A stretch of DNA of 64,000 nt, from the NCBI RefSeq assembly GCF_030269665.1, contig NZ_BSTS01000008.1, forward strand, positions 124,001 through 188,000. The letters run 5' to 3'. Source of the stretch: Actinomycetospora sp. NBRC 106375 (GTDB taxonomy: Bacteria; Actinomycetota; Actinomycetes; Mycobacteriales; Pseudonocardiaceae). The translations under genes were made by a program, and so were the position numbers. The first letter of the stretch is position 1. Each line of letters begins with the position of its first letter. The notes beneath the pieces are model-generated. The model worked only from the letters and a program-made list of their open reading frames with translations. It was not told the origin of the DNA and ran no database searches. Shown piece by piece: positions 29,201 to 47,428 of this stretch.

Positions 29201-30208
29201 TCACCGCGGCACCTGGCGGGCGTAGACGACGGTGTTGTCGCGGTAGGAGCCCGCGCTGCGGTCGAAGCTCCCGCCGCAGGTGATCAGGCGCAGCTCGGGC
29301 CCGGGGGTCGGTCCGTAGACGCGGTCGGTGGGGAACGCGTCCTTCGGGTAGACGGCGACCTCGGTGACCTCGAACGTGACCGACGCGCCGTCGGCGCGGG
29401 CGACCTCGGCGCGGTCGCCGGGGCGCAGGCGCCCGATCTCGTAGAACACCGAGGGCCCGTTCGCGGCGGAGTCCACGTGCCCGATGATCACCGACGGCCC
29501 CTGACGGCCCGGGGCCACGGAGTAGCGGAACCACGCGGCGTGGTCGTAGCCGGGCGAGCCCTCGGCGGGCACCTCCATCGTGCGGTCCGGGTTCAGCCCG
29601 ACCTGGTCGACCGGCGACGCCACGCGGATCGCGGGCACGGTCAGCGTCACCGGAGGCGACGACGACCCGAGCGCCTCCGCGGGCTCGGCCGCCCGCCCCG
29701 GCGGCGGGGACGCCAGCGACGGCGGGGGCGGCGGTCCGGCGGCGCCGGCCGCGGTGGCGACGGGTGCGGGCGGCGGACCGGTCTGGTGCGCGAGCGCCCA
29801 GCCCACCAGCGCGACCCCCAGCACCGCGAGCAGCGCCGCACCGACGACCAGCATCCGCCGCGCCCGGTCGGGGGCGGGTGCGGGTGTCGGCGCGGGCGCG
29901 GCCAGGTCGGGGACGGGCGCGGCCGGATCGTCGGCGGCGTCGGAGGAGGAGGCGGCGTCGGAGGCGGAGGAGGCGTCGGAGGAGGCGGCGTCGGCGTCGG
30001 CGTCGGCGTCGGAGATCACGAGCGCGTCATCCACCTCCGCGGCGCCCGCCGCGTGCATCACGCGCCCCTGATCTCCGGACACGGACCCGCCGCCGGACTC
30101 ACCGCCGGAGTCCTTGGAGATCACGAGCGCGTCATCCACCTCCGCGGCGCCCGCCGCGTGCGTCACGCGCTCCTGATCTCCGGAGCCGTCGTCGGGTGCG
30201 GCGTCCAC
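29201..30208 (-). CDS. Class F sortase
   Basis: 335 residues from GTG at 30208, preceded by GGGAGGAGGG. The cytoplasmic tail of about 115 residues is Ala/Asp/Ser-rich and contains two copies of a 23-residue repeat (HAAGAAEVDDALVIS). One transmembrane helix follows (about 118-138, MLVVGAALLAVLGVALVGWA). The extracellular sortase domain has VPAIRVASPVDQVGL, HAAWFRYSVAPGRQGPSVI, GHVDS (catalytic His, about 243), RPGDRAEVARADG, TEVAVYPKD, LRLITCGG (catalytic Cys, about 311) and SYRDNTVVYAR (with the Arg). Class F sortases are typical of actinobacteria, and their substrates are poorly known. The neighbouring collagen-like lipoprotein is a candidate partner. Confidence 0.9.
   Translation of the reverse strand: MDAAPDDGSGDQERVTHAAGAAEVDDALVISKDSGGESGGGSVSGDQGRVMHAAGAAEVDDALVISDADADADAASSDASSASDAASSSDAADDPAAPVPDLAAPAPTPAPAPDRARRMLVVGAALLAVLGVALVGWALAHQTGPPPAPVATAAGAAGPPPPPSLASPPPGRAAEPAEALGSSSPPVTLTVPAIRVASPVDQVGLNPDRTMEVPAEGSPGYDHAAWFRYSVAPGRQGPSVIIGHVDSAANGPSVFYEIGRLRPGDRAEVARADGASVTFEVTEVAVYPKDAFPTDRVYGPTPGPELRLITCGGSFDRSAGSYRDNTVVYARQVPR
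30011..30079. repeat. 69-bp direct repeat, copy 1, with inverted ends
   Basis: Differs from copy 2 (30116-30184) at two positions. Each copy begins GGAGATCACGAGCGCGT and ends with a near-perfect inverted version of that sequence, so each can fold into a long stem-loop. Both lie in the coding region for the sortase's cytoplasmic tail. Confidence 0.8.
30116..30184. repeat. 69-bp direct repeat, copy 2, with inverted ends
   Basis: 67 of 69 bases match copy 1. The terminal 17-base inverted repeats match each other at 16 positions in this copy and at 15 in copy 1. Confidence 0.8.
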
Positions 30209-30304
30209 CGGCCCTCCTCCCGCCGCGCCGAGGCTACGCAGACAGCGACCCCGCACACCGCGTGGTGTGCGGGGTCGCCGCCGTCGTTCCCTGTCCGCGC
30301 GTGA

Positions 30305-30847
30305 TCAGCTCTCCTGGCGGCGGCGACGGGCCGCCGCCGCACCGAGCGCGCCCGCACCCGCGAGGGCGAGCGCACCGGCGCCGATCATGCCCGCGTGCTC
30401 GATGCCCGAGGTCGAGCCGCCGCCGGTCTCGACGCCGCCGGACGGCGTCTGGCTGGCGCCACCACCGGAGCCACTGCCCGAGCCCGAGCCGCTGCCCGAG
30501 CCCGAGCCGCTGCCCGAGCCGTCGGCCCCGGCACCGCCGGCACCACCGGCACCACCCGCACCACCGGCACCGCCGGCACCGGCCTCACCGCCCGCACCCG
30601 GCTGCCCCTCGGCGCCCGGTTGACCCGGCGCTCCCGCCTGACCCGGAGCCCCGGCCTGACCCGGCGCCCCGGGCTGACCCGGCGCCCCCGCCTGACCCGG
30701 AGCGCCGGCCTGGCCCGCGGCACTGGGCTGGGCGGGCGGCGGCCCCTGCTGCGCCGCGTTCTGCGCACATCCGCCGAGAATCCCGAGACCCAGCGCCCCC
30801 AGCAGCACCGGGGCCGCGACCAGACGCGTCCTGCTGTTCACGTTCAC
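30305..30847 (-). CDS. Collagen-like Gly-rich lipoprotein with C-terminal anchor-like tail
   Basis: 180 residues from GTG at 30847, preceded by TGGAGG at good spacing. The N-terminus (VAAPVLLGALGLGILGGC) is a lipoprotein signal with lipobox LGGC. The mature protein is almost entirely GQAGAPGQPGAPG-type collagen-like triplets, then GGAGGAG and GSGSGSG runs. The C-terminus has VETGGGSTSGIEHAG, a hydrophobic stretch (MIGAGALALAGAGALGAAAA) and the basic end RRRRQES. That tail has the three-part layout of sortase substrates (motif, hydrophobic span, positive charges), with VETGG in place of LPxTG. It lies 96 bases upstream of the class F sortase, in the same direction. A surface-exposed structural protein is likely. 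Confidence 0.65.
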   Translation of the reverse strand: MNVNSRTRLVAAPVLLGALGLGILGGCAQNAAQQGPPPAQPSAAGQAGAPGQAGAPGQPGAPGQAGAPGQAGAPGQPGAEGQPGAGGEAGAGGAGGAGGAGGAGGAGADGSGSGSGSGSGSGSGSGSGGGASQTPSGGVETGGGSTSGIEHAGMIGAGALALAGAGALGAAAARRRRQES

Positions 30848-31019
30848 GATGTCCTCCACCCGGTTCGTCGCGTTCACGTCCACCCCGACAACGGGCGTGA
30901 CGCGGTCGGGGGAACCCTCCCGGGCTCACGGATTCACCACAGCCCCGAGCACCGCGATTGCGACGAACGGTTGTGCGCCACCTGCCGAACGGCATCGTGA
31001 TCGACATCGTTGCGACCAC

Positions 31020-35207: not shown

Positions 35208-37886
35208 GTGCACTCCGTGGAACCCGTGCCCCGGCCGGCGGCCGGGCGTCGAGCGGTCCGGGGCCGGCCGCTCACGGTGCCGCAGCTCGAGCTCACGCAC
35301 GGTGACCAGCGCCTCGTCGTCCCGCCCGGGCAGAGCGTCACGATCGGCCGTGACGAGGCAGCCGGCTTCCAGGTCGTGCACCCCCTGGTCTCGCGGGTCC
35401 ACGCCGAGCTGCGGGCGCTGCCCGGCGGGTGGGAGCTGATCGACCGCAGCCAGAACGGGGTGTTCGTCGCCAACGAGCGGCTGCAACAGCTCCGCCTGTC
35501 CCCCGGAGCGACGCCGCGCCTGACCCTCGCCTTCGGCCGCGGCGGGCCCGAGGTGTCGCTGGTGCTCCGCGCCGTCGCCGCCGACCCCGGCGCCCCGCCC
35601 GTGCCCATGGCGGCGCCGCTGACACCCCCGGACGCCCACCCGGGGCCGGTCCCCGCCGGAGCGACGCCGACCCCCGCGGCCGGCACCCCTGCCCCCGACC
35701 GCCCCGCGCCCGACCGCCCCGCCCCGTCCCCGGTCCGGCCCGCCGACGTCCCCGAGCTGTCGGGACCGAGCCGCCAGGGCCGGCTGTCGGCGGTGCACCG
35801 GCTGCCGTCGGCGCCCCCGACGACAGCCGGTGCTCCGGGGCCGGGCGCGCCCGGCGGCCCGGCCGGGAACGTCCCCGCCACACACGCCCCCGCCACACAC
35901 GGCCGCATCCGGATCGGGCGCGCCGAGGACAACGACGTCGTGGTCGCGGACCTGCTCGTGTCCCGTCACCACGCCGAACTGGTCGGCGACGGCGCGGGCG
36001 GCTGGGAGCTGGTCGACCTCGGCAGCCCGAACGGCACCTACGTCGACGGGCAGCGGGTCCGCCGCGCGGTCCTGCGTCCCGGGATGCTCGTCGCGATCGG
36101 CCGCGCGTTGTTCCACCTGGACGGCAGCCCGGACGGATCCGTCCGGCTCGTCGAGCGCGAGGACGCCGGCGCGATCGCGTTCCGCGCGCAGGACCTCGTC
36201 GTCCGGACACCACAGGGACGCACCCTGCTCGACCGGGTCGGCTTCGCCCTGGAGGAGAACAGCCTGCTCGCGGTCGTCGGACCGTCCGGGGCCGGCAAGT
36301 CGACGCTGCTGCGCGCGCTGACCGGCTTCCGCCCCGCCGACGAGGGCGTGGTCACCTACGCCGACCGCGACCTGTACGCCGACTACGACGAGCTGCGCCA
36401 GCGCATCGGGCTCGTGCCCCAGGACGACATCCTCCACCCGCAGCTCACCGTGCGACGCGCGCTCGCCTACGCCGCGCGGCTGCGGTTCCCGTCGGACACC
36501 ACCGCGGCGGAGCGGGACCGCCGCATCGACGAGGTGATCGGCGAGCTCGGCCTCACCGGCCAATCCGACCAACGCATCGACTCCCTGTCCGGCGGCCAAC
36601 GCAAACGCACCAGCGTCGCCCTCGAACTGCTCACCCGCCCCTCCCTGCTCTTCCTCGACGAACCCACCAGCGGCCTCGACCCCGGCCTCGACAAGAGCGT
36701 CATGCGCACCCTGCGCAGCCTCGCCGACGACGGCCGCACCGTCGTCGTGGTCACCCACAACGTCGCCAACCTCGACGTCTGCGACCGCCTCCTGCTGCTG
36801 GCCCCCGGCGGCACCGTCGCCTACTTCGGGCCACCCCAGGAAGCCCTCGCCTACTTCGGCGTCACCGACTTCGCCGACCTGTTCCTGCTGCTCGAACAGC
36901 ACCACCACACCGACTGGGCCGACCGCTACCGCCGCTCCTCGCTGGCCGAGCGCTACATCGGCACCGCGCCGCCGTCGCACGCACCCGTCGCCCGGGGTGC
37001 CTCGGCGCAGCCCGCGGCGTCGGCTCCGCCGCCGCGTCAGCAGTCGGCGCCCGCCCAGTTCGGGATCCTCGCGCGCCGCTACCTCGCGGTGATCGCCGCG
37101 GACCGCCAGTACACGATCTTCATGGCCGCGCTGCCGCTGGTGCTGGCGCTGCTGTCGCACGCGCTGCCCGTGGACACCGGGCTGTCGCTGTCCGAGCAGC
37201 TGCGCGGCGTCTCGGGCGCGCCGCAGAGCCTGCTCATGGTGTTCATCGTGGGCGCCGCGCTGATGGGGTCGGCCGCGTCGATCCGCGAGCTGGTGAAGGA
37301 ACGCGAGATCTACCGCCGCGAGCGCGCGATCGGGCTGTCGCGGGCGGCGTACCTGCTGTCCAAGGTCGCGGTGCTCGCCGTGATCACCGGCCTGCAGGGC
37401 GTCGTCCTCGGCGTGCTCGGGATCCTCGGGCGCCCCGGGCCCGACCAGGCCGTCGCCCTCGGCGATCCCCGCCTCGAGATCCTCGTCGCGATCGCCGCGA
37501 CCACCGTCGCGAGCATGGCCGTCGGGCTCGCCGTGTCGGCCTGGATCGACAACGCCGACCGCGGGATGCCGCTGCTGGTGCTCCTCGCGATGCTGCAGTT
37601 CATCCTGTCCAGCGCGCTGCTGCAGATCCAGGACAGCCCCGTCCTCGCGCAGCTGTCGTGGTTCGTGCCGGCGCGCTGGGGGTTCGCGCTCGGCGCGTCG
37701 ACGATCGGCGTGCGCAGCGGACCGGGCACGCCGCCGCCCTACACCGACGCCGAACCGCTCTGGGAGCACACCGCCGGCACCTGGTGGTTCGACCTCGGCG
37801 CCCTCGCCGGCGTCACCGTCCTGTTCGTCGTCGTCACCGCGCTCCTGCTCCGCCGCCTCGACCCGCGGGCGCGGAGACCGCGATGA
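35208..37886 (+). CDS. FHA-domain ABC transporter 1 (Rv1747-like)
   Basis: 892 residues from GTG at 35208. Two FHA domains: residues about 25-110 (TIGRD, SRVHAEL, NGVFV) and about 230-305 (IGRAEDNDVVVAD, SRHHAEL, GSPNGTYVDG), joined by a Pro/Ala-rich linker. The nucleotide-binding domain has Walker A GPSGAGKST (about 358), signature LSGGQRKRTS (about 459), Walker B LLFLDEPTSGLD (about 481) and the H-loop THNVANLD. The membrane domain (about 630-885) is of the ABC-2 type with EREIYRRERAIGLSR and about six helices. It is a half-transporter exporter that should dimerise. Rv1747 is phosphorylated by PknF on Thr residues that bind its own FHA domains, and the kinases encoded next door suggest the same control here. 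The cargo is unknown. Confidence 0.93.
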   Translation: MHSVEPVPRPAAGRRAVRGRPLTVPQLELTHGDQRLVVPPGQSVTIGRDEAAGFQVVHPLVSRVHAELRALPGGWELIDRSQNGVFVANERLQQLRLSPGATPRLTLAFGRGGPEVSLVLRAVAADPGAPPVPMAAPLTPPDAHPGPVPAGATPTPAAGTPAPDRPAPDRPAPSPVRPADVPELSGPSRQGRLSAVHRLPSAPPTTAGAPGPGAPGGPAGNVPATHAPATHGRIRIGRAEDNDVVVADLLVSRHHAELVGDGAGGWELVDLGSPNGTYVDGQRVRRAVLRPGMLVAIGRALFHLDGSPDGSVRLVEREDAGAIAFRAQDLVVRTPQGRTLLDRVGFALEENSLLAVVGPSGAGKSTLLRALTGFRPADEGVVTYADRDLYADYDELRQRIGLVPQDDILHPQLTVRRALAYAARLRFPSDTTAAERDRRIDEVIGELGLTGQSDQRIDSLSGGQRKRTSVALELLTRPSLLFLDEPTSGLDPGLDKSVMRTLRSLADDGRTVVVVTHNVANLDVCDRLLLLAPGGTVAYFGPPQEALAYFGVTDFADLFLLLEQHHHTDWADRYRRSSLAERYIGTAPPSHAPVARGASAQPAASAPPPRQQSAPAQFGILARRYLAVIAADRQYTIFMAALPLVLALLSHALPVDTGLSLSEQLRGVSGAPQSLLMVFIVGAALMGSAASIRELVKEREIYRRERAIGLSRAAYLLSKVAVLAVITGLQGVVLGVLGILGRPGPDQAVALGDPRLEILVAIAATTVASMAVGLAVSAWIDNADRGMPLLVLLAMLQFILSSALLQIQDSPVLAQLSWFVPARWGFALGASTIGVRSGPGTPPPYTDAEPLWEHTAGTWWFDLGALAGVTVLFVVVTALLLRRLDPRARRPR
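36534..36937 (+). repeat. 404-bp near-identical tract shared with FHA-ABC transporter 2 (copy 1)
   Basis: By eye it differs from 45608-46011 at only four positions, all single bases. Flanking sequence of the two genes is clearly more diverged. The tract encodes the signature motif, Walker B, D-loop and H-loop of the ATPase. Confidence 0.9.
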
Positions 37887-39583
37887 CCGTCACCGCCTCC
37901 GGCCGCCACGCGCTCCCCGACACCACCACCGACACCACCACCGGCTCCGACGCCGGGGAGGTGTTCGGGCCCTACCGGCTCGGGGAGTGCCTCGGTCGGG
38001 GCCGGACGGGCGACGTCCACCGTGCCCACGACACCGGACGCGGACGGACCGTCGCGCTGAAGCGCCTGCCCGCGGGATCGGACGCCGACCGCTTCCACCG
38101 CGCCGCGCGCACGGCCGCCCGCCTGTCGTCGCCGCACGTCATCCCGATCCACGACTTCGGGACGATCGACGGGCGGCTCTACCTCGCCATGCGCCTCGTC
38201 CCCGGCACCGATCTCGCCACGGAGATCGACCGGGACGGCCCGCTGCGCCCGGGGCGGGTGGCGTCGATCGTGCGCCAGATCGCGGACGCGCTCGACGCCG
38301 CGCACGCCGACGGGCTCGTGCACGGCGGCCTCACGCCGTCGACCGTGCTGCTCGCCCGGCAGGCCGGGCGCGACGTCGTCTACCTCACCGACATCGGGAT
38401 CGCCCGCGCCGTGCACGGTGACGGCGACGAGGGCCTCGATGACGTCAACGACCGCGCGCCGTCCGCCACCGCCGCCGCCGCCGGAACGTCCGCCGCGACG
38501 ACGCCCGAGGACGCCACCGGCCACGGGTTCCGCCCGGGGAGCGACGTCCACGCGCTCGGCTGCCTGCTCGTCGAGGCGCTCAGCGGGCGCCCGGCGTTCC
38601 CCGGGGCGACCACGCCGCCGCGCGACGCCGCGCCGCCGCTGGTCACCGAGCGGGTCCCGGGGCTGCCCCCGGCGATCGACGCGGTGGTCGCCCGCGCGCT
38701 GGCCACCGCACCGGCCGACCGGTACGCCTCGGCGGGCGAGCTCGCGGAGGCGGCGTACCGCGCGCTCACGGGCGCGTCCGCCGCGAGCGCGCCCGCGGGA
38801 CCGCCCGTGGTGACGCCGCCACGTGGGGCGCGCTACGTCGTCGTCCCCGACACCGCGCCCGGCCGGAACGGCACCGGGACCCACCAGCCGCTGATGCCGG
38901 CCGCGGTGCCGGGCCAGCGCTCGGCCCCGCCCGTCGTCGACCCCTCCCCGGCGCCGCCCCGTCCGATCGCGACGACCGCCCCGCCGCGACCGGCACGGCG
39001 GGCGCCGTCCCGGACGCCCCGGTGGATCGGCGGCGGGATCGTCGCCGCGGTCGTCGCCGTCCTGGGGCTGCTCACGGTCACCGGCGTCGTCGCCGGGGAC
39101 GACCCCCATCCGCCGCCGACGGCCCCGCTCACCGCCCCCGCCCCGGACGGCGGGCTCGCCGCCGCGTTCCCCGACGTCGCCCGGCTCGGCGGGGCCTGCG
39201 CGCCGTACGCGCCGGGGTCCCAGGAGTACGCGACGTCGACCGGCGCGCGGCCGGTGGCGGTGATCCGCTGTGACCACGGCGCGGTCGTGCCGGGGACGTA
39301 CGTCTACTACACGCAGTGGCCGACCGCGGCCGACGCCCGGCGGTGGCAGACCGACCAGGCAAGCGGCGGCCCGAGCCTGGACGGCCTCGCGACCTGGGTC
39401 GACGGCACCGGCGCGGCGCAGGGACCGCGGCACACCCGCGCGGCGACCGACGGCACCGTCTACACCACGGCGGCCTACGCCGATCGTCCGTACAGCTTCG
39501 ACGTGATCGCCCGGGCGCTGGACGACGCGCACCGCGTGCTCCCGTCGATGGGCCTCCTGCCGGCCGCCCGGGTGCCGGCCTGA
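37883..39583 (+). CDS. Membrane pseudokinase (Ser/Thr kinase fold) with extracellular domain
   Basis: 566 residues from ATG at 37883, overlapping the FHA-ABC stop codon (ATGA). The kinase fold spans about 30-300: LGRGRTGDVHRAHD as glycine loop, VALKRLP with Lys, LSSPHVIPIHDFGTIDGRL, then LVHGGLTPSTVLL where active kinases have HRDVKPSN, and TDIGIA in place of DFG. The loss of the catalytic Asp (HGG at 147-149) and of the Asn ligand predicts no phosphotransfer, though the nucleotide may still bind. A Pro/Ala linker, a transmembrane helix (about 381-403) and an ectodomain (about 415-566, with Cys-containing LGGACAPYAPGSQEYATSTG, YTQWPTAADARRWQTDQ) follow. The ectodomain is homologous to that of the next kinase. 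Confidence 0.85.
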   Translation: MTVTASGRHALPDTTTDTTTGSDAGEVFGPYRLGECLGRGRTGDVHRAHDTGRGRTVALKRLPAGSDADRFHRAARTAARLSSPHVIPIHDFGTIDGRLYLAMRLVPGTDLATEIDRDGPLRPGRVASIVRQIADALDAAHADGLVHGGLTPSTVLLARQAGRDVVYLTDIGIARAVHGDGDEGLDDVNDRAPSATAAAAGTSAATTPEDATGHGFRPGSDVHALGCLLVEALSGRPAFPGATTPPRDAAPPLVTERVPGLPPAIDAVVARALATAPADRYASAGELAEAAYRALTGASAASAPAGPPVVTPPRGARYVVVPDTAPGRNGTGTHQPLMPAAVPGQRSAPPVVDPSPAPPRPIATTAPPRPARRAPSRTPRWIGGGIVAAVVAVLGLLTVTGVVAGDDPHPPPTAPLTAPAPDGGLAAAFPDVARLGGACAPYAPGSQEYATSTGARPVAVIRCDHGAVVPGTYVYYTQWPTAADARRWQTDQASGGPSLDGLATWVDGTGAAQGPRHTRAATDGTVYTTAAYADRPYSFDVIARALDDAHRVLPSMGLLPAARVPA

Positions 39584-39669
39584 GCGGACCCCGTCCGGAG
39601 CCACGTGCCACCCCGACGTGGCTCTCCGACGACCGAGAGATCACCAAACGTGAGGGAACTCTGCGAAAA

Positions 39670-39693
39670 GTGTGAGAGCTATGGCCCTCACAC
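39670..39693. promoter_or_regulatory. Inverted repeat in the kinase upstream region
   Basis: GTGTGAG, 10 bases, CTCACAC: perfect 7-bp arms. A -10-like TACTCT lies downstream at 39708-39713. It may be a regulator site for the kinase gene, which has its own 225-base upstream region. Confidence 0.35.
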
Positions 39694-39808
39694 ACCGCGA
39701 TCGCACATACTCTCGGTGACTTTCACCCCCGGGGGATCGACCTCCCGGAGCAGTGCCCCGACTGCCCGCTCGACCTCCTCCGCCGCACCCCGATCAGGAG
39801 AACGCCCC

Positions 39809-41737
39809 ATGAGCACCGAGGCCCCCGGCCACTCGCCGTCGCCGTCGTCGGGCGAGCCGACGGAGACGTTCGGGCCGTACCGCCTCGAGGAGCGCATCGG
39901 GCGGGGCGGGATGGGCGAGGTGTTCCGCGCGTTCGACACCTCCCGTCAGCGCACGGTGGCGGTCAAGCGGCTGCACGGCGGGCTGGCCGACGACGGCGAC
40001 TACCAGGAGCGCTTCCGCCGCGAGTCGCGCACGGCGGCGCGCCTCTCGTCGCCGCACGTCATCCCGATCCACGACTTCGGCACGATCGACGGGCGCCTCT
40101 ACATCGACATGCGCCTGGTCTCCGGCGTCGACCTCGCCGAGGAGATCGAGCGCCACGGACGTCTCGAGCCCCGCCGCGCCGCCGAGATCGTCCGGCAGAC
40201 CGCGGACGCCCTCGACGCCGCGCACGACGACGGGCTGATCCACCGCGACGTCAAGCCGTCCAACGTCCTGATCACCCAGCACCGCGGGCGCGACTTCGTC
40301 TACCTCGTCGACTTCGGCATCGTCCGCGCCATGGGCGGCGACACCAAGAGCTCGCTGACCGGCACCGGCTCGGCGATCGGCACGCTCGCCTACATGGCCC
40401 CCGAGCTGTTCGTGGGCCGCGACATGGACCGCCGTGTCGACGTCTACGCGCTGGGCTGCCTGCTCTTCGAGGCGATCGCCGGGCGCCCGCCCTTCGTCTC
40501 CGAGGGGCCGGGCCTCATGTACGACCACCTCAACGAGACGCCCCCGCGGCTCTCGGAGATCGCGCCGGGCTCGCCGCCCGCGCTCGACGAGGTGCTGGCG
40601 AAGGCGATGGCTAAGGACCCCGCCGCGCGCTACGCCACCGCCGGCGACTTCGCCGACGCCGCGGTGCGCGCCGTCGGCGGCGAGGTGTCCCCGACGACGA
40701 CCGGACCGGCCGACGACGCGACGTCCCGGACCCCGAGCGTCGGCCCCGCGGCGGCGGGCCTGGCGGCAGGTGCCGCCGGTGCCGCCGGTGCCGCGGCGAC
40801 CAGCGGCCCGCAGAGCGGCACGCCCACCCACGTCCCCGGTCCCCGCGCACCCTCGGGCCCGCAGGCCCAGCCGTGGACCCCCGCGGCCCCGACGGGACCC
40901 TCCGGACCCCCGTCCCCGTTCGGCTCGCCCCAGGGCTCCGGCCCGCAGGGCACGCCGGCGTGGGGTCAGGGCGCGCCCGGCCAGAGCGGGCCGCAGGGCT
41001 TCGCCCAGGGCTACCCGGGCACGGCGCCCTACGGCCAGGGGTACGGCCCGGCGGGCACCGGACAGTTCCCGCCGCCGGGCGGCAGCGGGCCGCAGGCCGG
41101 CTGGTACGGCCAGCCGCCGCAGCCCCCGAAGGGCGGCAAGGGCAAGGTCGTCGCGATCGTCGCCGGCGTCGTCGTGCTGCTGCTCGTCGTCGCCGTCGGC
41201 GCGGTCGTGCTGCTCAACCAGGGCAGCTCGCCGACGCCGGCCGCCCCGCCGGTCAACCCCGGCCCCCAGACCTCGCAGCCGCAGGCCTCGACGACACCGG
41301 CCGTCCCCGCCGGGCAGCCCGCGCTCTCGCAGGTCTTCCCGGACGTGGCGACGTCGAACTGCCGCCCGTCCACATCGGCGGACCAGCTGACCACCAGCAC
41401 CGGCGTGAACCCCACCGAGGCCTACGTCTGCGACTTCTCCAGCGCGGCCCCCGGCGCACGGGTGATCTTCGCGCGCTGGCCGGACTCCTCGGGCGCCCAG
41501 TCCTGGTACAACGACACCGCCGCCCTCGGACCGCGCATCGAGAACTTCGACGTCTGGCAGTCCGGCGGGGTCGAGCAGGGACCGCTCTACACGGCGCAGT
41601 CCAACGGCACCGTCTACTCCACCGGCATCTACAACGGCCTGCCCTACAGCTGGGAGATCCGGACGACGACGCTGGACCAGTCGAACACGGTCTTCGAGCG
41701 GGTGCAGTTCCGGGCCCGGACGACCTTCGGCGGCTGA
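39809..41737 (+). CDS. Membrane Ser/Thr protein kinase (active), PknF-like, with extracellular domain
   Basis: 642 residues from ATG at 39809, with AGGAG at 9-base spacing. The kinase domain spans about 30-290: GRGGMGEVFRA, VAVKRL, HRDVKPSN (145 onward), DFG (168-170) and GTLAYMAPELF. All catalytic residues are present. A Gly/Gln/Pro/Tyr-rich juxtamembrane region of about 150 residues and a transmembrane helix (about 447-470) precede an ectodomain with two cysteines (VATSNCRPSTSADQLTTSTG, EAYVCDFSSAAPG, IFARWPDSSGAQSWYNDTAA, TVYSTGIYNGLPYSWEI). It is the only clearly active kinase between the two FHA-ABC genes, so it is the best candidate for phosphorylating them. The signal it senses is unknown. 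Confidence 0.92.
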   Translation: MSTEAPGHSPSPSSGEPTETFGPYRLEERIGRGGMGEVFRAFDTSRQRTVAVKRLHGGLADDGDYQERFRRESRTAARLSSPHVIPIHDFGTIDGRLYIDMRLVSGVDLAEEIERHGRLEPRRAAEIVRQTADALDAAHDDGLIHRDVKPSNVLITQHRGRDFVYLVDFGIVRAMGGDTKSSLTGTGSAIGTLAYMAPELFVGRDMDRRVDVYALGCLLFEAIAGRPPFVSEGPGLMYDHLNETPPRLSEIAPGSPPALDEVLAKAMAKDPAARYATAGDFADAAVRAVGGEVSPTTTGPADDATSRTPSVGPAAAGLAAGAAGAAGAAATSGPQSGTPTHVPGPRAPSGPQAQPWTPAAPTGPSGPPSPFGSPQGSGPQGTPAWGQGAPGQSGPQGFAQGYPGTAPYGQGYGPAGTGQFPPPGGSGPQAGWYGQPPQPPKGGKGKVVAIVAGVVVLLLVVAVGAVVLLNQGSSPTPAAPPVNPGPQTSQPQASTTPAVPAGQPALSQVFPDVATSNCRPSTSADQLTTSTGVNPTEAYVCDFSSAAPGARVIFARWPDSSGAQSWYNDTAALGPRIENFDVWQSGGVEQGPLYTAQSNGTVYSTGIYNGLPYSWEIRTTTLDQSNTVFERVQFRARTTFGG

Positions 41738-41774
41738 CGCCCGACCCCTGACGGCACCAGGACGGGACGGCCCT

Positions 41775-43817
41775 GTGACGGAGGGGACCGGCGGGACGCC
41801 GGGGAGCGACGGCGAGTCGCTCTCCGGCGGGCACTACCGGCTCGGCGCGGCCCGTTCCGGGCTCGTCCGCTCGGCCCGCGACACGTGGGACGATCGGGAC
41901 GTCGTCGCGGTCGCGCTCGCCCCGGACGGCGGGTCGCCGGACCCCGGTGCCCTGACCCGCGTCGCCCGGGACGTCCGGCGCGGCGGGGAGCACCCGCACC
42001 CCGGTCTCGCGCCGGTGCTCGACGTCGCCGCGGGCGCCGACCGCAGGCTGTGGCTCGTCCACGAGGTGCCGGCGGGCGCCCGCGGGCTCGCCGCCCTCGA
42101 CCCGGTGCCCGCCGACCGGCTGCTGGGGTACGCGCTGGTGCTCGCCGGGGCACTCCGGGCGGCCCACGCGGCGCGGCTGGTGCACGGCCGTATCGGGGCG
42201 GACGTCGTGCTGGTCGGGGCTGCGGGGTCGGACGGGTCGGACGGCGCGGGGATCCGGCTGCTCGGCGCGCCGTCGGGGACGCGCCCGGACGACCGCCCCG
42301 GCGCCGAGGACGACGACGCCCGCGCCCTGGCCGCGACCCTCGCCGCGGTGCCCGTGGTCGATGCCGACGACGACACGGCCGAGCGCCTCGCCGCCGTGCT
42401 CACCCGCGCCGCGCAGGCCCGCCCGGAGACCGCCGGCGGGCTCGCGACCGCGCTGCAGGAGGACCTGCACGCGCTCGAGGGATCGCCCCCGGACGGCGCG
42501 GCGACCCCCGCGGAGCCCGCCGGGCGACCCACGGACACAGGTGACGGTGAGCCCGCGATCCGGCGCACCGAGGTCATCAGCACCGCGGCGGTCACGGGCG
42601 CCTGGTCGCCGACCCGTCCCGAGCCCTTCGGCGCGCCGCCCACGGACGCCCGTCCCACGACCCGCGTCGGTGTCCTGGCCTCCCCTTCGGCCGGCCCGGC
42701 TCCCGCCGCGCCGGCGCCCCGCTCCCCGGCTGGCGGCCCGCCCGCGGGGCCCGCGTCGGCCCCGCCCCGCGCTCCCCTCTCACCGCGCCCACCGCACCCA
42801 CCGGGCCCGCCACACCCGCCCCACCCACCGGGCCCGTCGACCCCGCCGCCCGCCCGCTCCCGGCGCGGCCTGGTCGTCGTCGCGGTGGTGGCCGTCCTCG
42901 TGCTCCTCGCCGGCGTGGTCGCGGCGGCACTGTCGTTCCGCGGCGGCGGCACGGATGACACGGGCGGCACGGGCGGGGCGGCGGGTGCGGGCGACCGGGT
43001 CGTCCCCGCCGTGATCGGCGACGCCCGCACCGTCGAGCCGTGCGCCGTGACGGACCCCGCCGCGATCAGCGGGACCGCACGGGTCGTGCCCGATCTCGGC
43101 AGCCCCGCCGCGTGCACCGTCCTCGCCGCGGTCCCGGGCGGGGACGTCGTGGTCGTCGCGACGCTCGAGCCGGTCGCCACCGCGGTCACCGAGGGGCGGG
43201 AGGAGCGGGTCGGGAGCCTGGTCGTCCGGCGGTCCGCCCCGCGGGACGGGATCTGCTCCCGCACGGTCGTGACCACCGAAGGGGTGCAGGTCGCCGTCGA
43301 CGCGGCCCCGGCCTCCGGGTCGTCCGCCGACCCGTGCGCGTCCGCCGACGCCGCGACCGACGCGACGGTCCGGACGCTGCTCGCCGGCGCACCCCTGCCC
43401 CGCCGCGCCACGGCCGACCCGCCGGCGGCCCTGACCACGGTCGACGCGTGCGCCCTGCTCGACCCCGACGACCTCGAGGCCGTGCCCGGCCTCGACGCCG
43501 CCCGCGTCGCCCCGGGTGTCGGCGGCTGGTCGTGCCGCTGGGGCTCCGAACCGGGGGCGGGAGGCACCGTCGCCGAGGTCGCCGTCGAGCGACGCCGCAC
43601 CTTCACCGCGACGGCGGACGTCGGCGGCCGGCCCGCGACGGTCACCGACCGCCGCGACTCGTGCGACGTGGCGGTCGCCCAGCGGGCGTACACGGCGGTC
43701 GACGGCTCGCCGCGGGTCGAGCTGCTGGAGGTCTCCGTCCACGGGCCGCCCGAGGACCGCTGCGCGGCCGCGACCGGCCTCGCCGCGGCGGCGGTGCCCC
43801 GGCTCCCGGCGCCGTGA
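41775..43817 (+). CDS. Degenerate kinase-fold membrane protein with DUF3558-like ectodomain
   Basis: 680 residues from GTG at 41775. Residues about 15-230 follow the kinase fold only loosely: GGHYRLGAARSGLVRSARDT as the first strand, VVAVALAPDG where VAxK should be (Lys lost), ARLVHGRIGADVVLVGAAG where HRD should be, and LLGAPSG in place of DFG. No catalytic residue remains. A long Pro-rich stretch (PPHPPGPPHPPHPPGP) and a transmembrane helix (about 369-391) lead to a Cys-containing extracellular region. Its last part (TVDACALLDPDDLEAVPG and GWSCRWGS) resembles DUF3558 lipoproteins. It probably serves as a scaffold or sensor subunit. It follows the active kinase by 37 bases. Confidence 0.75.
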   Translation: MTEGTGGTPGSDGESLSGGHYRLGAARSGLVRSARDTWDDRDVVAVALAPDGGSPDPGALTRVARDVRRGGEHPHPGLAPVLDVAAGADRRLWLVHEVPAGARGLAALDPVPADRLLGYALVLAGALRAAHAARLVHGRIGADVVLVGAAGSDGSDGAGIRLLGAPSGTRPDDRPGAEDDDARALAATLAAVPVVDADDDTAERLAAVLTRAAQARPETAGGLATALQEDLHALEGSPPDGAATPAEPAGRPTDTGDGEPAIRRTEVISTAAVTGAWSPTRPEPFGAPPTDARPTTRVGVLASPSAGPAPAAPAPRSPAGGPPAGPASAPPRAPLSPRPPHPPGPPHPPHPPGPSTPPPARSRRGLVVVAVVAVLVLLAGVVAAALSFRGGGTDDTGGTGGAAGAGDRVVPAVIGDARTVEPCAVTDPAAISGTARVVPDLGSPAACTVLAAVPGGDVVVVATLEPVATAVTEGREERVGSLVVRRSAPRDGICSRTVVTTEGVQVAVDAAPASGSSADPCASADAATDATVRTLLAGAPLPRRATADPPAALTTVDACALLDPDDLEAVPGLDAARVAPGVGGWSCRWGSEPGAGGTVAEVAVERRRTFTATADVGGRPATVTDRRDSCDVAVAQRAYTAVDGSPRVELLEVSVHGPPEDRCAAATGLAAAAVPRLPAP

Positions 43818-43884
43818 CGTCGAAGAGTGCGCCGAGGGGGTGCGCTCGCGATCGAGATGGCCGAGACTGCCGCGGGACCCGACC

Positions 43885-43891
43885 GAGGAGG
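43885..43891 (+). promoter_or_regulatory. Ribosome binding site of a 15-codon leader frame
   Basis: GAGGAGG, 5 bases before ATG at 43897. This is one of the strongest ribosome sites in the cluster, and it serves a very short frame rather than the main gene. Confidence 0.6.
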
Positions 43892-43896
43892 CCGAC

Positions 43897-43944
43897 ATGA
43901 CGAGCACCGCGCCGCTGCTGTGGCGCCCGGGGTCGGGACGATGA
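43897..43944 (+). CDS. 15-residue leader peptide, coupled to the next gene
   Basis: MTSTAPLLWRPGSGR from ATG at 43897 to TGA at 43944. The stop overlaps the next gene's start as ATGA, and the next gene has no ribosome site of its own. The arrangement fits translational coupling: ribosomes load on the leader and re-initiate on the ectodomain gene. Regulation through the leader's codons (Trp, Arg, Pro) is possible but not shown. Confidence 0.45.
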   Translation: MTSTAPLLWRPGSGR

Positions 43945-44519
43945 CGGCGTCGACGGCCACCGCGGACACGGTGGACACCACGACCGGCGCCGCCCCGTCG
44001 AAGGGTCCGTGGATCGCGAGCGTCGCCCTGGCCGTCGCCATCGTCGTCGCGGCGGGTCTCGCGGTCGTGACGCTCGTCCGGGAGCCCGCGGGGTCGGCCG
44101 CCGCGCCGGCCGCGACCCAGGACCAGCCGGTCGCGGCGCCCCTGCCCCAGGCCCCGCCGCTCCAGGGCACCGGGAACCCGGCGCCGCCCCAGGTCCCGGT
44201 CGGGCAGCCCGCCGTCACCGACACCACCGGTCGTGCGCTCCCCGCCGCGGTGGCCACCGGCGTCGGCGGCCTCTACACCGCCCTCGGGACGGGCGACCTG
44301 CCCGGCGTGCAGTCGCGTTACCGGCCCGCCGCCGCGTTCGACGCGGCACCGTGGTCCCAGGTGGCGCCGCTGCTCACCACCGCCCCCAACCGCGAGCAGC
44401 TCCTCGCGGCCCTGCGTGAGCCACCCCAGCGCCGCTCCGGCATCTACCGCTACGCCGCGAACGGGGCCGTGGTCGGCGTCGACGCCCAGGGCCGGATGGC
44501 CTTCATGCTCCTGCCCTGA
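43941..44519 (+). CDS. Single-pass membrane protein with small ectodomain
   Basis: 192 residues from ATG at 43941. The short cytoplasmic N-terminus is Thr-rich (ASTATADTVDTTTGAAPSKG), a set of possible phosphorylation sites. The transmembrane helix is at about 23-45 (WIASVALAVAIVVAAGLAVV). A Pro/Gln linker follows, and a folded ectodomain of about 100 residues begins at ALPAAVATGVGGLYTALGTG and ends QGRMAFMLLP. The family is not recognised. Its stop overlaps the start of FHA-ABC transporter 2 (TGATG). A Thr-rich tail beside an FHA protein invites the idea that it is bound by an FHA domain after phosphorylation. Confidence 0.65.
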   Translation: MTASTATADTVDTTTGAAPSKGPWIASVALAVAIVVAAGLAVVTLVREPAGSAAAPAATQDQPVAAPLPQAPPLQGTGNPAPPQVPVGQPAVTDTTGRALPAAVATGVGGLYTALGTGDLPGVQSRYRPAAAFDAAPWSQVAPLLTTAPNREQLLAALREPPQRRSGIYRYAANGAVVGVDAQGRMAFMLLP

Positions 44520-46948
44520 TGGGAGCCCCGGACCACCTCGCCCGCCCCGGTACCCCCGCCACCGGTCCCCTCGAGGTGCGCGCGGGCGGGCAGCGGCGGA
44601 CCGTCCCGCCGGGCGGCACGCTGGGTGTCGGCCGCGACGAGGCGTCCGACCTGCAGGTCATCGGTCCGCGCGTCTCCCGCGAGCACCTGCGGATCCGGGC
44701 CACGCCCGAGGGCTGGCAGCTGGTCGACCGCAGCCGCAACGGGTCGTTCGCCTTCGGGCGGCCGTTCCGCGAGATGATCCTGACGGGCCCGGTCGCCGTG
44801 CGCCTCGGCGATCCCGCGGCCGGCCCCGAGGTGCACCTCGCCGTCCTGACGCCCCCGTCGCCGACCCCCGAGCCGGCGGCCGGCCCGCACGGCACGGCCG
44901 TCGTCCCGGCCGCCGCGCGGTCGTCGGCGCAGGGCCGCCTCTCCGCGGTGCACCAGCTCGCGACCACGCCGGCGCCCGGCCGCAGCACGTCGCCGCGCGT
45001 GCGGATCGGCCGCGCGGACGACAACGACGTCGTGGTCGCCGACCTGCTGGTCTCCCGGCACCACGCCGAGCTCGTCCGCCGCCCCGACGGCGGGTGGGAC
45101 ATCGTCGACCTCGGCAGCCCCAACGGCACGTTCGTCGACGGGGCCCGGGTGCGGCGGGCACCGGTGTCGTCGACGTCGGTGGTCGGCATCGGGCACGCCC
45201 TGTTCCACCTCGAGGGTGACCGGCTGGTCGAGCACGTCGACACCGGCGACATCGGCTTCCGCGCCGACGGGCTCGTCGTGCGCGAGGGCGACAAGACGCT
45301 GCTCTCCGGGGTCGGGTTCTCCCTCGCCCAGCGCAGCCTCCTGGCCGTCGTCGGACCGTCCGGGGCCGGCAAGTCGACATTGCTGCGCGCGCTGACCGGC
45401 TTCCGGCCCGCCGACGAGGGCGTCGTCGAGTACGCGGGACGGGACCTCTACGGCGAGTACGACGAGCTCCGCCAGCGCATCGGGCTCGTGCCCCAGGACG
45501 ACATCCTGCATCCCCAGCTTACGGTGCGCCGGGCCCTGGCGTACGCGGCCCGGCTGCGCTTCCCCACCGACGTGTCGGCCGCCGACCGCGACCGCCGCAT
45601 CGACGACGTGATCGGCGAGCTCGGCCTCACCGGCCAATCCGACCAACGCATCGACTCCCTGTCCGGCGGCCAACGCAAACGCACCAGCGTCGCCCTCGAA
45701 CTGCTCACCCGCCCCTCCCTGCTCTTCCTCGATGAACCCACCAGCGGCCTCGACCCCGGCCTCGACAAGAGCGTCATGCGCACCCTGCGCAGCCTCGCCG
45801 ACGACGGCCGCACCGTCGTCGTGGTCACCCACAACGTCGCCAACCTCGACGCCTGCGACCGCCTCCTGCTGCTCGCCCCCGGCGGCACCGTCGCCTACTT
45901 CGGCCCACCCCAGGAAGCCCTCGCCTACTTCGGCGTCACCGACTTCGCCGACCTGTTCCTGCTGCTCGAACAGCACCACCACACCGACTGGGCCGACCGC
46001 TACCGCCGCTCGCCCCAGTGGGCGCGCTACGTCGGCGCGCCCGACGCCCGCCGCGGGCGTCCCGTCCCGACCGCCCCGAACCAGGCGCCGCGCCAGCAGC
46101 CGGTGCTCTCGCAGTTCGCGGTGCTGTGCCGGCGCTACCTCGCCGTGGTGCTGGCCGACCGCCAGTACACGATCTTCATGGCGGCGCTGCCGCTGCTGCT
46201 GGCCGTGCTCACCCACGCCCTGCCCGGGGACACGGGGCTGTCCCAGGCCGCGCAGGCGCGCGGGACGCCCGGCTCGCCGAACAGCCTGCTGCTGGTGTTC
46301 GTCGTCGGCGCCGCGCTGATGGGGTCGGCGGCGTCGATCCGCGAGGTCGTCAAGGAACGCGAGATCTACCGCCGCGAGCGGGCGATCGGGCTCTCGCGCG
46401 GGGCCTACCTCTTCTCCAAGCTCAGCGTGCTGATCGCGATCACCGGCGTGCAGGCCGTGCTGCTCGGCGTGCTGGGGATGCTCGGCAGGCCGGCACCCGA
46501 CGAGGCGGTGCTGCTCGGCTCGGGCACGCTCGAGATCGTCGTCGCGCTGGTCGGCGTCGCCGTCGCGAGCATGGCCCTGGGGCTCGCGGTGTCCGCGGCC
46601 ATCACCAACGCCGACCGCGGGATGCCGCTGCTCGTGCTGCTCGCGATGCTGCAGTTCATCCTGTCCAGCGCGCTGCTGCAGATCCAGGGCAGCCCCGTCC
46701 TGGCGCAGCTGTCGTGGCTGGTCCCGGCCCGGTGGGGGTTCGCGCTCGGCGCGTCGACCATCGGCCTGCCGAGCGGACCCGGCCTGCCGACGCCGTACCG
46801 CGAGCACGACCCGTTGTGGGACCACGACGCCGCCACCTGGCTGCTCGACCTCGGCGCGCTCGCCGCCCTGGTCGTGCTCTTCGCGGTGGCGACCGCGGTG
46901 CTGCTGCGCCGCGTCGAGCCCATCCGCCGCCGCCGGCGCGCGGGCTAG
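44519..46948 (+). CDS. FHA-domain ABC transporter 2 (Rv1747-like)
   Basis: 809 residues from ATG at 44519. FHA 1 (about 20-100) has LGVGRDEASDLQVIG, SREHLRIR and RNGSFAF. FHA 2 (about 160-235) has RIGRADDNDVVVADLLVSRH and GSPNGTFVDG. Its ATPase has Walker A GPSGAGKST (about 279), LSGGQRKRTS (about 381), LLFLDEPTSGLD and THNVANLDAC. The ABC-2 membrane domain occupies about 540-800. It is about 80 residues shorter than transporter 1 because of its shorter linkers. Domain order and most of the ATPase and membrane sequence match transporter 1, so the two are paralogues that could form homo- or heterodimers. It closes the coupled gene set that begins at 41775. Confidence 0.93.
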   Translation: MGAPDHLARPGTPATGPLEVRAGGQRRTVPPGGTLGVGRDEASDLQVIGPRVSREHLRIRATPEGWQLVDRSRNGSFAFGRPFREMILTGPVAVRLGDPAAGPEVHLAVLTPPSPTPEPAAGPHGTAVVPAAARSSAQGRLSAVHQLATTPAPGRSTSPRVRIGRADDNDVVVADLLVSRHHAELVRRPDGGWDIVDLGSPNGTFVDGARVRRAPVSSTSVVGIGHALFHLEGDRLVEHVDTGDIGFRADGLVVREGDKTLLSGVGFSLAQRSLLAVVGPSGAGKSTLLRALTGFRPADEGVVEYAGRDLYGEYDELRQRIGLVPQDDILHPQLTVRRALAYAARLRFPTDVSAADRDRRIDDVIGELGLTGQSDQRIDSLSGGQRKRTSVALELLTRPSLLFLDEPTSGLDPGLDKSVMRTLRSLADDGRTVVVVTHNVANLDACDRLLLLAPGGTVAYFGPPQEALAYFGVTDFADLFLLLEQHHHTDWADRYRRSPQWARYVGAPDARRGRPVPTAPNQAPRQQPVLSQFAVLCRRYLAVVLADRQYTIFMAALPLLLAVLTHALPGDTGLSQAAQARGTPGSPNSLLLVFVVGAALMGSAASIREVVKEREIYRRERAIGLSRGAYLFSKLSVLIAITGVQAVLLGVLGMLGRPAPDEAVLLGSGTLEIVVALVGVAVASMALGLAVSAAITNADRGMPLLVLLAMLQFILSSALLQIQGSPVLAQLSWLVPARWGFALGASTIGLPSGPGLPTPYREHDPLWDHDAATWLLDLGALAALVVLFAVATAVLLRRVEPIRRRRRAG
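45608..46011 (+). repeat. 404-bp near-identical tract shared with FHA-ABC transporter 1 (copy 2)
   Basis: Partner of 36534-36937. The four differences seen are C to T in the Walker B Asp codon, T to C giving Val to Ala after NLD, and two third-position changes. Confidence 0.9.
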
Positions 46949-47041: not shown

Positions 47042-47428
47042 ATGACCAGCCCCGGTACCTACACCACCAGCGACGGCGCGACGTTCGGCGCCGACGGCGG
47101 ACTCCTCTCGGAGCCGGCGGGCACGCCCACCATGACCTCGTTCGACGAGGACCGCGACGGCTACTACGAGACCTCGGCCACCGACGCCGACGGCGACGGG
47201 TACGCCGAGACGGCGTCGGCCGACCGGAACCACGACGGCTTCGACGAGTACGCCGTCTCTGACCACGACCACGACGGCAAGGTCGACGAGGTCGTCCTCG
47301 ACACCGACGCGGACGGCTACGGCGACGCGGCCGTCACCGACGGCGCGCCCTACGGCGACCACGGCCCGGTCGCGGTCGCGGACACCGACGGCGACACCTA
47401 CGCCGACGTCGTCATCCCGCTCCCCTGA
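47042..47428 (+). CDS. Acidic DxDxDG-repeat protein, probably Ca2+-binding
   Basis: 128 residues from ATG at 47042, with GAGGGAGA upstream. About six repeats of 11-13 residues carry Ca2+-loop motifs: DEDRDGYYE, DADGDGYAE, DRNHDGFDE, DHDHDGKVDE, DTDADGYGD and DTDGDTYAD. The pattern resembles thrombospondin type 3 or dockerin/EF-hand loops without helices. The pI is very low. There is no signal peptide, so it would be cytoplasmic unless exported by another route. It follows the FHA-ABC gene by 93 bases in the same direction. That makes it a possible cargo or Ca2+-linked partner, which is inference only. Confidence 0.7.
   Translation: MTSPGTYTTSDGATFGADGGLLSEPAGTPTMTSFDEDRDGYYETSATDADGDGYAETASADRNHDGFDEYAVSDHDHDGKVDEVVLDTDADGYGDAAVTDGAPYGDHGPVAVADTDGDTYADVVIPLP

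Follow-up and report, generated by a model that had tools for sequence, protein, structure and literature searches.

An enlarged kinase and FHA-ABC exporter cluster in Actinomycetospora, a variant of the mycobacterial PknF-Rv1747 type

Introduction

Can a single receptor kinase serve two exporters, and what would the inactive kinases encoded beside it contribute? These questions are raised by a gene cluster of Actinomycetospora sp. NBRC 106375. We analyzed it in a window of 64,000 nucleotides, to which coordinates refer unless another locus is named, and which belongs to a 297-kb contig in a genome of 6.79 Mb. The open frames of the cluster follow each other on the + strand in the order FHA-ABC exporter 1, a membrane pseudokinase (PSK), a receptor Ser/Thr kinase (KIN), a degenerate kinase (DEG), a leader minicistron, a protein with one membrane span (SM), and FHA-ABC exporter 2. 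A first-pass annotation of this DNA had listed the seven frames in this order, and we found all of them on this strand and at the places it gave. It had also proposed that one active kinase and two inactive partners gate both exporters, in an expanded version of the PknF-Rv1747 pair of Mycobacterium tuberculosis.

The cluster is indeed a variant of the known mycobacterial module of a kinase and an FHA-ABC exporter, seen here only in Actinomycetospora. Kinase control of FHA-ABC exporters is documented, in the literature found, for one mycobacterial pair. We found no publication whose title or abstract opening describes the cluster or the gene fusions presented below, most subscription journals and supplements lying outside the search.

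A predicted active kinase between two FHA-ABC exporters

Exporter 1 (35208..37886, + strand; the start is uncertain, either GTG at 35208 or a nearby alternative) and its paralogue exporter 2 (44519..46948, +) each carry two FHA domains, ABC_tran, and ABC2_membrane in a single polypeptide (Pfam). This is the architecture of Rv1747. The first-pass annotation was thus right about the exporter type and needs correction in that each protein has two FHA domains. With exporter 1 as query, the solved FHA-1 of Rv1747 (6ccd) aligns with residues 20-94 and FHA-2 (6cah) with residues 231-306, so that the order is the same. The residues that bind the FHA ligand (GR, SRxH, and NG) are intact in FHA-2 in 11 of 11 aligned rows and in FHA-1 in all 10 rows holding it. 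LSAVH, invariant before FHA-2 in both exporters, was set aside: it probably forms a strand of FHA-2, given that TALH or TAVH stands near this domain in the fusions and in the exporter of Geodermatophilus.

KIN (39809..41737, +) has a proline-rich linker, one membrane span, and an extracellular domain (41306..41734) whose structure is modeled with confidence (pLDDT 93.7). It matches Pfam Pkinase (7.2e-46), and the catalytic Lys, Glu, HRD, DFG, and APE are invariant in 10 of 10 KIN proteins. The ratio of non-synonymous to synonymous substitution rates (dN/dS) of its kinase domain is 0.02-0.12 (5 pairs). KIN is thus a predicted active Hanks kinase and the sole catalytic kinase between the two exporters, and the earlier view of one active kinase flanked by a pseudokinase and a degenerate kinase fold agrees with the catalytic residues, which appear intact in KIN and lost in PSK and DEG. 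A plasmid origin was considered and discarded: the matches of KIN in five plasmid records (E <= 1e-60) all have less than 60% identity and none covers 80% of it.

Distribution, losses, and fusions

The whole region lies on a contig in eight species: the window, A. straminea, A. succinea, A. lutea, A. callitridis, A. chibensis, A. lemnae, and A. cinnamomea. The relatives' loci that we compared comprise seven of 20 kb and four of 15 kb, none with N. KIN is present in each of the eight clusters read through. Exporter 1 is intact in six of them; A. cinnamomea retains residues 1-133 only, and in A. straminea the FHA-1 part is in a different frame from the remainder, because of either a genuine break or an error in the sequence. 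Four species have exporter 2 intact (window, A. succinea, A. lemnae, and A. cinnamomea); it is in two pieces in A. callitridis and absent from A. straminea, A. lutea, and A. chibensis. Both exporters are intact in three of the eight (window, A. succinea, and A. lemnae). On a midpoint-rooted tree of five concatenated proteins, with internal supports of 99-100 and both exporters taken as ancestral, exporter 2 was lost about three times (in A. straminea, in A. lutea, and in A. callitridis with A. chibensis) and exporter 1 once.

Checking the gene order in relatives, as the first-pass annotation had suggested, gave a mixed result. The order recurs in the genus, and extracellular domains of the KIN and PSK types are adjacent in 10 of 18 genus genomes (at E <= 1e-6 both are missing from the other eight, which include a genome of only 59% completeness), but the window alone among the eight species has both exporters together with a PSK retaining its kinase domain and a full-length DEG. 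The idea of gating is therefore half right. The link between kinase and FHA exporter is supported by gene context and by fusions. The gating of two exporters by two inactive partners is not supported in the form proposed, as neither an exporter pair nor the kinase domain of PSK is needed: three species of eight have the pair of exporters, and six of nine assessable loci lack the PSK kinase domain, so that an inactive kinase domain cannot be the general gate there.

FHA-ABC matches at E <= 1e-60 are found in 15 of the 18 Actinomycetospora genomes. Two genomes without such a match, G006 and G017, are 96 and 97% complete, so members of the genus can probably do without the exporter. Five other genomes of the genus (among L026-L031) have a different FHA-ABC neighborhood, with a StpK7-like kinase. 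Here we also observed, by eye, an FHA-like protein of 257-270 residues (L026, L027, L028, L030, and L031). In four of the five loci its frame and the end of the FHA-ABC gene overlap; in L026 it comes after a second kinase.

When the window's genome and 60 relatives were searched at E <= 1e-100, 20 of the 61 genomes had an FHA-ABC, as did 6 of the 42 genera. Our survey of KIN loci covers the best 80 named loci of 146 confirmed. An FHA-ABC gene (>500 aligned columns) lies in 12 of these 80; seven are the cluster described here, and the other five are from Parafrankia (2), Geodermatophilus (2), and Pseudonocardia (1). Within this sampling, the cluster was seen only in Actinomycetospora. Three of the 80 loci encode kinase and exporter as a single chain. 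Frames with Pkinase, FHA, ABC_tran, and ABC2_membrane (Pfam) were found in Pseudonocardia sp. TRM90224 (1127 residues, L118:10067-13450) and in Parafrankia soli (1104 residues, with one undetermined base, L080:9992-13306), and in Parafrankia sp. EUN1f (L089:10001-13657) the reading frame is open from kinase through exporter. These fusions tie KIN-type kinases to this type of exporter. Together with the architecture and the gene order in the genus, they support the earlier proposal of an expanded kinase-exporter module resembling PknF-Rv1747. In Geodermatophilus sabuli (L100:10010-15668), a gene whose product by eye resembles a peptidoglycan amidase separates the kinase from the FHA-ABC exporter.

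PSK and DEG, two proteins derived from kinases

PSK (37883..39583, +) matches Pfam Pkinase (1.5e-24), its HRD motif reads HGG or HGA, and its activation segment is missing or degenerate. All three PSK proteins that retain the kinase domain combine kinase homology with loss of catalytic residues, as expected of a pseudokinase. Its C-terminal extracellular domain (39155..39580, aligned with that of KIN, to which it is homologous) is retained in 10 of 10 loci, and the kinase domain was lost at least twice. Because the extracellular domains of the two proteins are encoded next to each other in 10 of 10 genomes, KIN and PSK may form a receptor pair, in which PSK is likely a co-receptor with a dispensable kinase domain. 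Second KIN-like receptor kinases were noticed in A. lemnae (L051:10001-11014) and A. succinea (L052:10001-11449).

DEG (41775..43817, +) consists of a degenerate kinase domain, a linker, one membrane span, and an extracellular part. It has no Pfam kinase match. Its profile finds the solved structures of PknE (1.3e-5) and PknA (3e-5) in the PDB and active kinases in our collected protein set (up to 1.5e-8), and kinase models of PADLOC match it (6e-8). Its HRD motif reads HGR or HGG. By its sequence, DEG is thus derived from a kinase and has the lost catalytic residues of a pseudokinase. The gene directly downstream of the Pseudonocardia fusion encodes a receptor kinase that has HRD and DFG, and its extracellular part is similar to that of DEG (4.7e-29, profile positions 282-631). 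This suggests that DEG descends from a genuine receptor kinase that was partnered with an FHA-ABC exporter.

The linker of DEG, between the kinase-like domain and the membrane span, evolves fast (dN/dS 0.56-1.08, 5 pairs). Within it, a motif R-x-T-[DE]-V-I is found in seven of seven DEG proteins with a complete linker; in the window it lies in residues 263-270 (RRTEVIST, 42561..42584, +). MAG99, cut inside the motif (it reads RVTERV), and MAG54, cut before it, were left out of the seven. Among the 27 ungapped stretches of 8 columns in the linker, none is better conserved than that of the motif. In 20,000 shuffles of the linkers it appeared ten times in one of the seven and never in more, a control that is optimistic since it ignores the shared ancestry of the seven linkers. 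A second motif, R-x-T-x-x-V, follows about 30 residues after the first in five of the seven (42651..42668 in the window, with Thr295). For comparison, FHA-1 of Rv1747 is reported to recognize Thr237 of Rv2623, a pTXX(V) site (PMC5549992). Thr265, in RRTEVI, is the best candidate for an FHA ligand. The DEG proteins of A. straminea and A. lemnae have lost the membrane span and the extracellular part and have kept the kinase-like domain and the motif.

Proposed mechanism

We propose, with a probability of about 0.47, that the cluster is an enlarged module of the PknF-Rv1747 type. KIN and PSK would sense the envelope jointly through their homologous extracellular domains. Once activated, KIN would phosphorylate threonines in the DEG linker, Thr265 being the best candidate, and/or the exporters. 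The FHA domains of the exporters would then bind the phospho-threonines, and whichever of the two exporters remains would be recruited or clustered and thereby activated. As for the cargo, our guess, by analogy with Rv1747, is envelope lipids. The proposal builds on the anatomy of the locus, the catalytic residues, conservation, losses, fusions, and the gene conversion described below.

The strongest alternative is a plain module like that of Rv1747 and PknF, in which KIN would phosphorylate the exporter linkers directly, the FHA domains would bind KIN or each other, and PSK and DEG would be decaying duplicates without a cytosolic role. We hold this to be a possible reading, if a less probable one. 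It has a precedent, as Rv1747 is reported to be phosphorylated by PknF and to cluster upon phosphorylation (PMC9312465, PMC7761784), and in other genera a kinase and an exporter are joined in one polypeptide. The loss of DEG in A. cinnamomea and the repeated loss of the PSK kinase domain fit it, as does the faster evolution of the kinase-like domains of PSK and DEG (dN/dS 0.29-0.52 versus the 0.02-0.12 of KIN). The linkers between the FHA domains speak on both sides. In exporter 2, two threonines are kept in four of four aligned rows, the first with Val at +3 (T-x-x-V); in exporter 2 of one metagenome-assembled genome (L005), only the second is in place. In exporter 1, which is the sole exporter in several species, no threonine of the linker is conserved across seven rows. 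A phospho-site common to the linkers of both exporters was sought and given up, no threonine being conserved across the two. Against the plain module also speak the presence of the DEG motif in all complete linkers, the dN/dS below 0.5 of the DEG kinase-like domain, and the reduction of two DEG proteins to exactly the kinase-like domain and the motif-bearing cytosolic part.

Several observations weigh against our proposal. The conserved threonines in the linker of exporter 2 lower its odds, as well as those of the scaffold and phospho-threonine tail models of DEG discussed below, and raise those of the plain module. A. cinnamomea has lost DEG and kept exporter 2, so DEG is not indispensable. 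The derivation of DEG is itself a point of attack: profile comparison between DEG and KIN is weak (probability 5), the AlphaFold model of DEG is poor (pLDDT 57, pTM 0.30), and Foldseek with this model returned no match at E <= 0.001. The optimism of the shuffle control also belongs here. The remaining PSK kinase domains are not decaying freely: their dN/dS is 0.33-0.52 (3 pairs) and does not exceed the 0.59-0.67 of the PSK extracellular domain in these pairs. As A. straminea lacks exporter 2 and has an interrupted frame in exporter 1, some species may be without an intact exporter. Finally, the KIN paralogues L051 and L052 have no FHA-ABC gene in the stretch covered, and FHA-ABC loci from other genera have no similar kinase within 20 kb in three of four cases.

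A more specific form of the enlarged module would make DEG a former receptor kinase turned into a phospho-threonine tail, whose two sites serve as a paired ligand for the paired FHA domains of an exporter. Phosphorylation of DEG by KIN would then switch on both interchangeable pumps, and PSK would survive mainly as the outer half of the receptor. We regard this version as doubtful. The short motif of DEG yields a prediction at the level of a single residue. Actinomycetospora offers a natural series of soil species, with or without the PSK kinase domain, with either exporter or both, and with a DEG that is full, shortened, or missing. With the single-chain kinase-exporter proteins of other genera, this series makes the roles of pseudokinase and FHA docking separable by comparison.

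Gene conversion between the exporters

A tract in the second half of the ATPase domain (36516-36875 in exporter 1, 45590-45949 in exporter 2) includes a block of 125 bp that is identical between them (36534..36658, +, and 45608-45732). In three successive 40-codon stretches of the tract, third-position identity between the two exporters of the window is 95, 98, and 94%. Within A. succinea it is 88-91% and within A. lemnae 92-100%, whereas exporter 2 of the window compared with its orthologues in these two species reaches 62-90%. The contrast between paralogues and orthologues is sharpest in the first stretch; in the second, some orthologues are as close to each other as the paralogues, such as exporter 1 of the window and of A. 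lemnae (98%). In a tree of the ATPase segment, exporters 1 and 2 pair within A. succinea (support 99) and within the window (98); those of A. lemnae lie near each other with a support of 52, which is no real support. These comparisons show the ATPase halves as homogenized by gene conversion in the window and in A. succinea, and possibly in A. lemnae.

The membrane domains tell another part of the story, as exporters 1 and 2 form separate groups in the tree of this segment (support 100). Recognition of cargo could differ accordingly, and the two exporters might be separate systems, each with its own function and cargo, brought together in one locus. This reading is unlikely in our view, since one or the other exporter was lost in four lineages and the ATPase half was converted. 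Exporter loss in both directions and gene conversion point instead to overlapping function despite the diverged membrane domains, and suggest that the two exporters are largely interchangeable.

Docking without phosphorylation, and defense

DEG might also act independently of phosphorylation, its kinase-like domain being a scaffold for the FHA domains. The model for this is EssB/YukC with EssC/YukB of type VIIb secretion, in which the pseudokinase YukC and the FHA region of YukB interact in Escherichia coli and the authors infer independence from phosphorylation (PMC9600267). DEG has the same layout as YukC, with a kinase-like domain, a membrane span, and an extracellular domain. However, the FHA ligand residues, reported as not conserved in type VIIb systems (PMC9600267), are kept here, and an intact kinase adjoins in every cluster read through, which makes a scaffold of this kind improbable, more so than two separate systems. 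An anti-phage defense island built on Hanks kinases (PD-T4-6-like or linked to StpK7) is far less credible still: PADLOC models of PD-T4-6 match KIN (4.3e-116) and PSK (6.1e-72), the exporters match the mad3, AriA, and mad8 models, and the closest NCBIfam equivalog of KIN, StpK7 of M. smegmatis (NF052427), is reported to be linked to phage susceptibility (PMC13355554), but the PD-T4-6 matches center on the general kinase domain, some covering part of the linker, those of the exporters lie on ATPase stretches, and KIN scores 332 bits, the curated cut-off for StpK7 being 900.

Leader, SM, and flanking genes

The leader peptide of the first-pass annotation (43897..43944, +, 15 codons) proved real, with equivalents in eight of eight loci. 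Each is a frame of 10-16 residues that follows a GAGG ribosome site in a constant frame relative to SM. Its TGA stop overlaps [AG]TGA at codon one (3 loci) or three (5 loci) of SM as called. Position, frame, and stop overlap are thus kept in all eight, and the sequence is only loosely conserved. Translational coupling is the likely role of the leader. Couplings at three junctions of the window had been reported, and they are there: ATGA between FHA-ABC 1 and PSK, ATGA between leader and SM, and TGATG between SM and FHA-ABC 2. The first is kept in eight of eight loci where exporter 1 reaches the junction; TGATG is absent from the other four SM/FHA-ABC 2 junctions examined, where gaps are 27 to 92 bases.

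SM (43941..44519, +) has one membrane span and a C-terminal domain with a sub-threshold match to Rv0361_Cterm (E 0.044), and is probably an accessory extracytoplasmic subunit. It had been described as a threonine-tailed membrane protein. This is true of the window, where seven threonines precede the conserved GPW, but the other seven SM proteins have 0, 0, 0, 0, 1, 3, and 3, and we dropped the threonine-rich N-terminal tail as a candidate for a general FHA ligand.

Next to the cluster, at 47042-47428, is a small acidic protein with repeated DxDxDG-like stretches that adjoins it in relatives too; its EF-hand and FG-GAP matches are weak and under the cut-off. Further away, on the - strand (29201-30883), a gene that by eye is sortase-like adjoins a protein with a GVDTG sorting signal (28.9 bits, for a cut-off of 29).

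Comparison with known systems

Parts of the cluster recall several characterized systems. The model of the KIN extracellular domain has only middling fold matches, among which is the extracellular sensor domain of PknH (4esq). In type VI secretion of Agrobacterium, with PpkA, TssL, and Fha, a membrane protein bearing phospho-threonine is reported to recruit an FHA protein, and export is turned on (PMC3953482), as we propose here, but the export machine is unrelated. EssB/YukC and EssC/YukB likewise associate a membrane pseudokinase bearing an extracellular domain with an ATP-driven transporter carrying two FHA domains, and pseudokinase and transporter bind each other. The FHA domains of the EssC type are described as lacking the ligand residues, whereas these are kept in Actinomycetospora and a kinase is added; in this the cluster differs from the EssB/EssC pair of type VIIb secretion.

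Closer in logic is the mycobacterial set of PknB, MviN, and FhaA, in which a membrane pseudokinase, once phosphorylated by a kinase, is reported to become the target of an FHA protein (PMC3989709). Here the FHA domains are on the exporters, and the candidate phosphorylation site is in the linker of DEG. The closest likeness remains PknF-Rv1747 of M. tuberculosis, where the gene of a membrane kinase stands beside that of an exporter with two FHA domains, an ATPase, and a membrane domain in one chain. The Actinomycetospora cluster differs by the addition of a second exporter, a co-receptor, and a degenerate kinase. KIN itself is nearest to StpK7 in NCBIfam. What characterizes the Rv1747 type, a cognate kinase in the same gene group, is found in all eight clusters read through.

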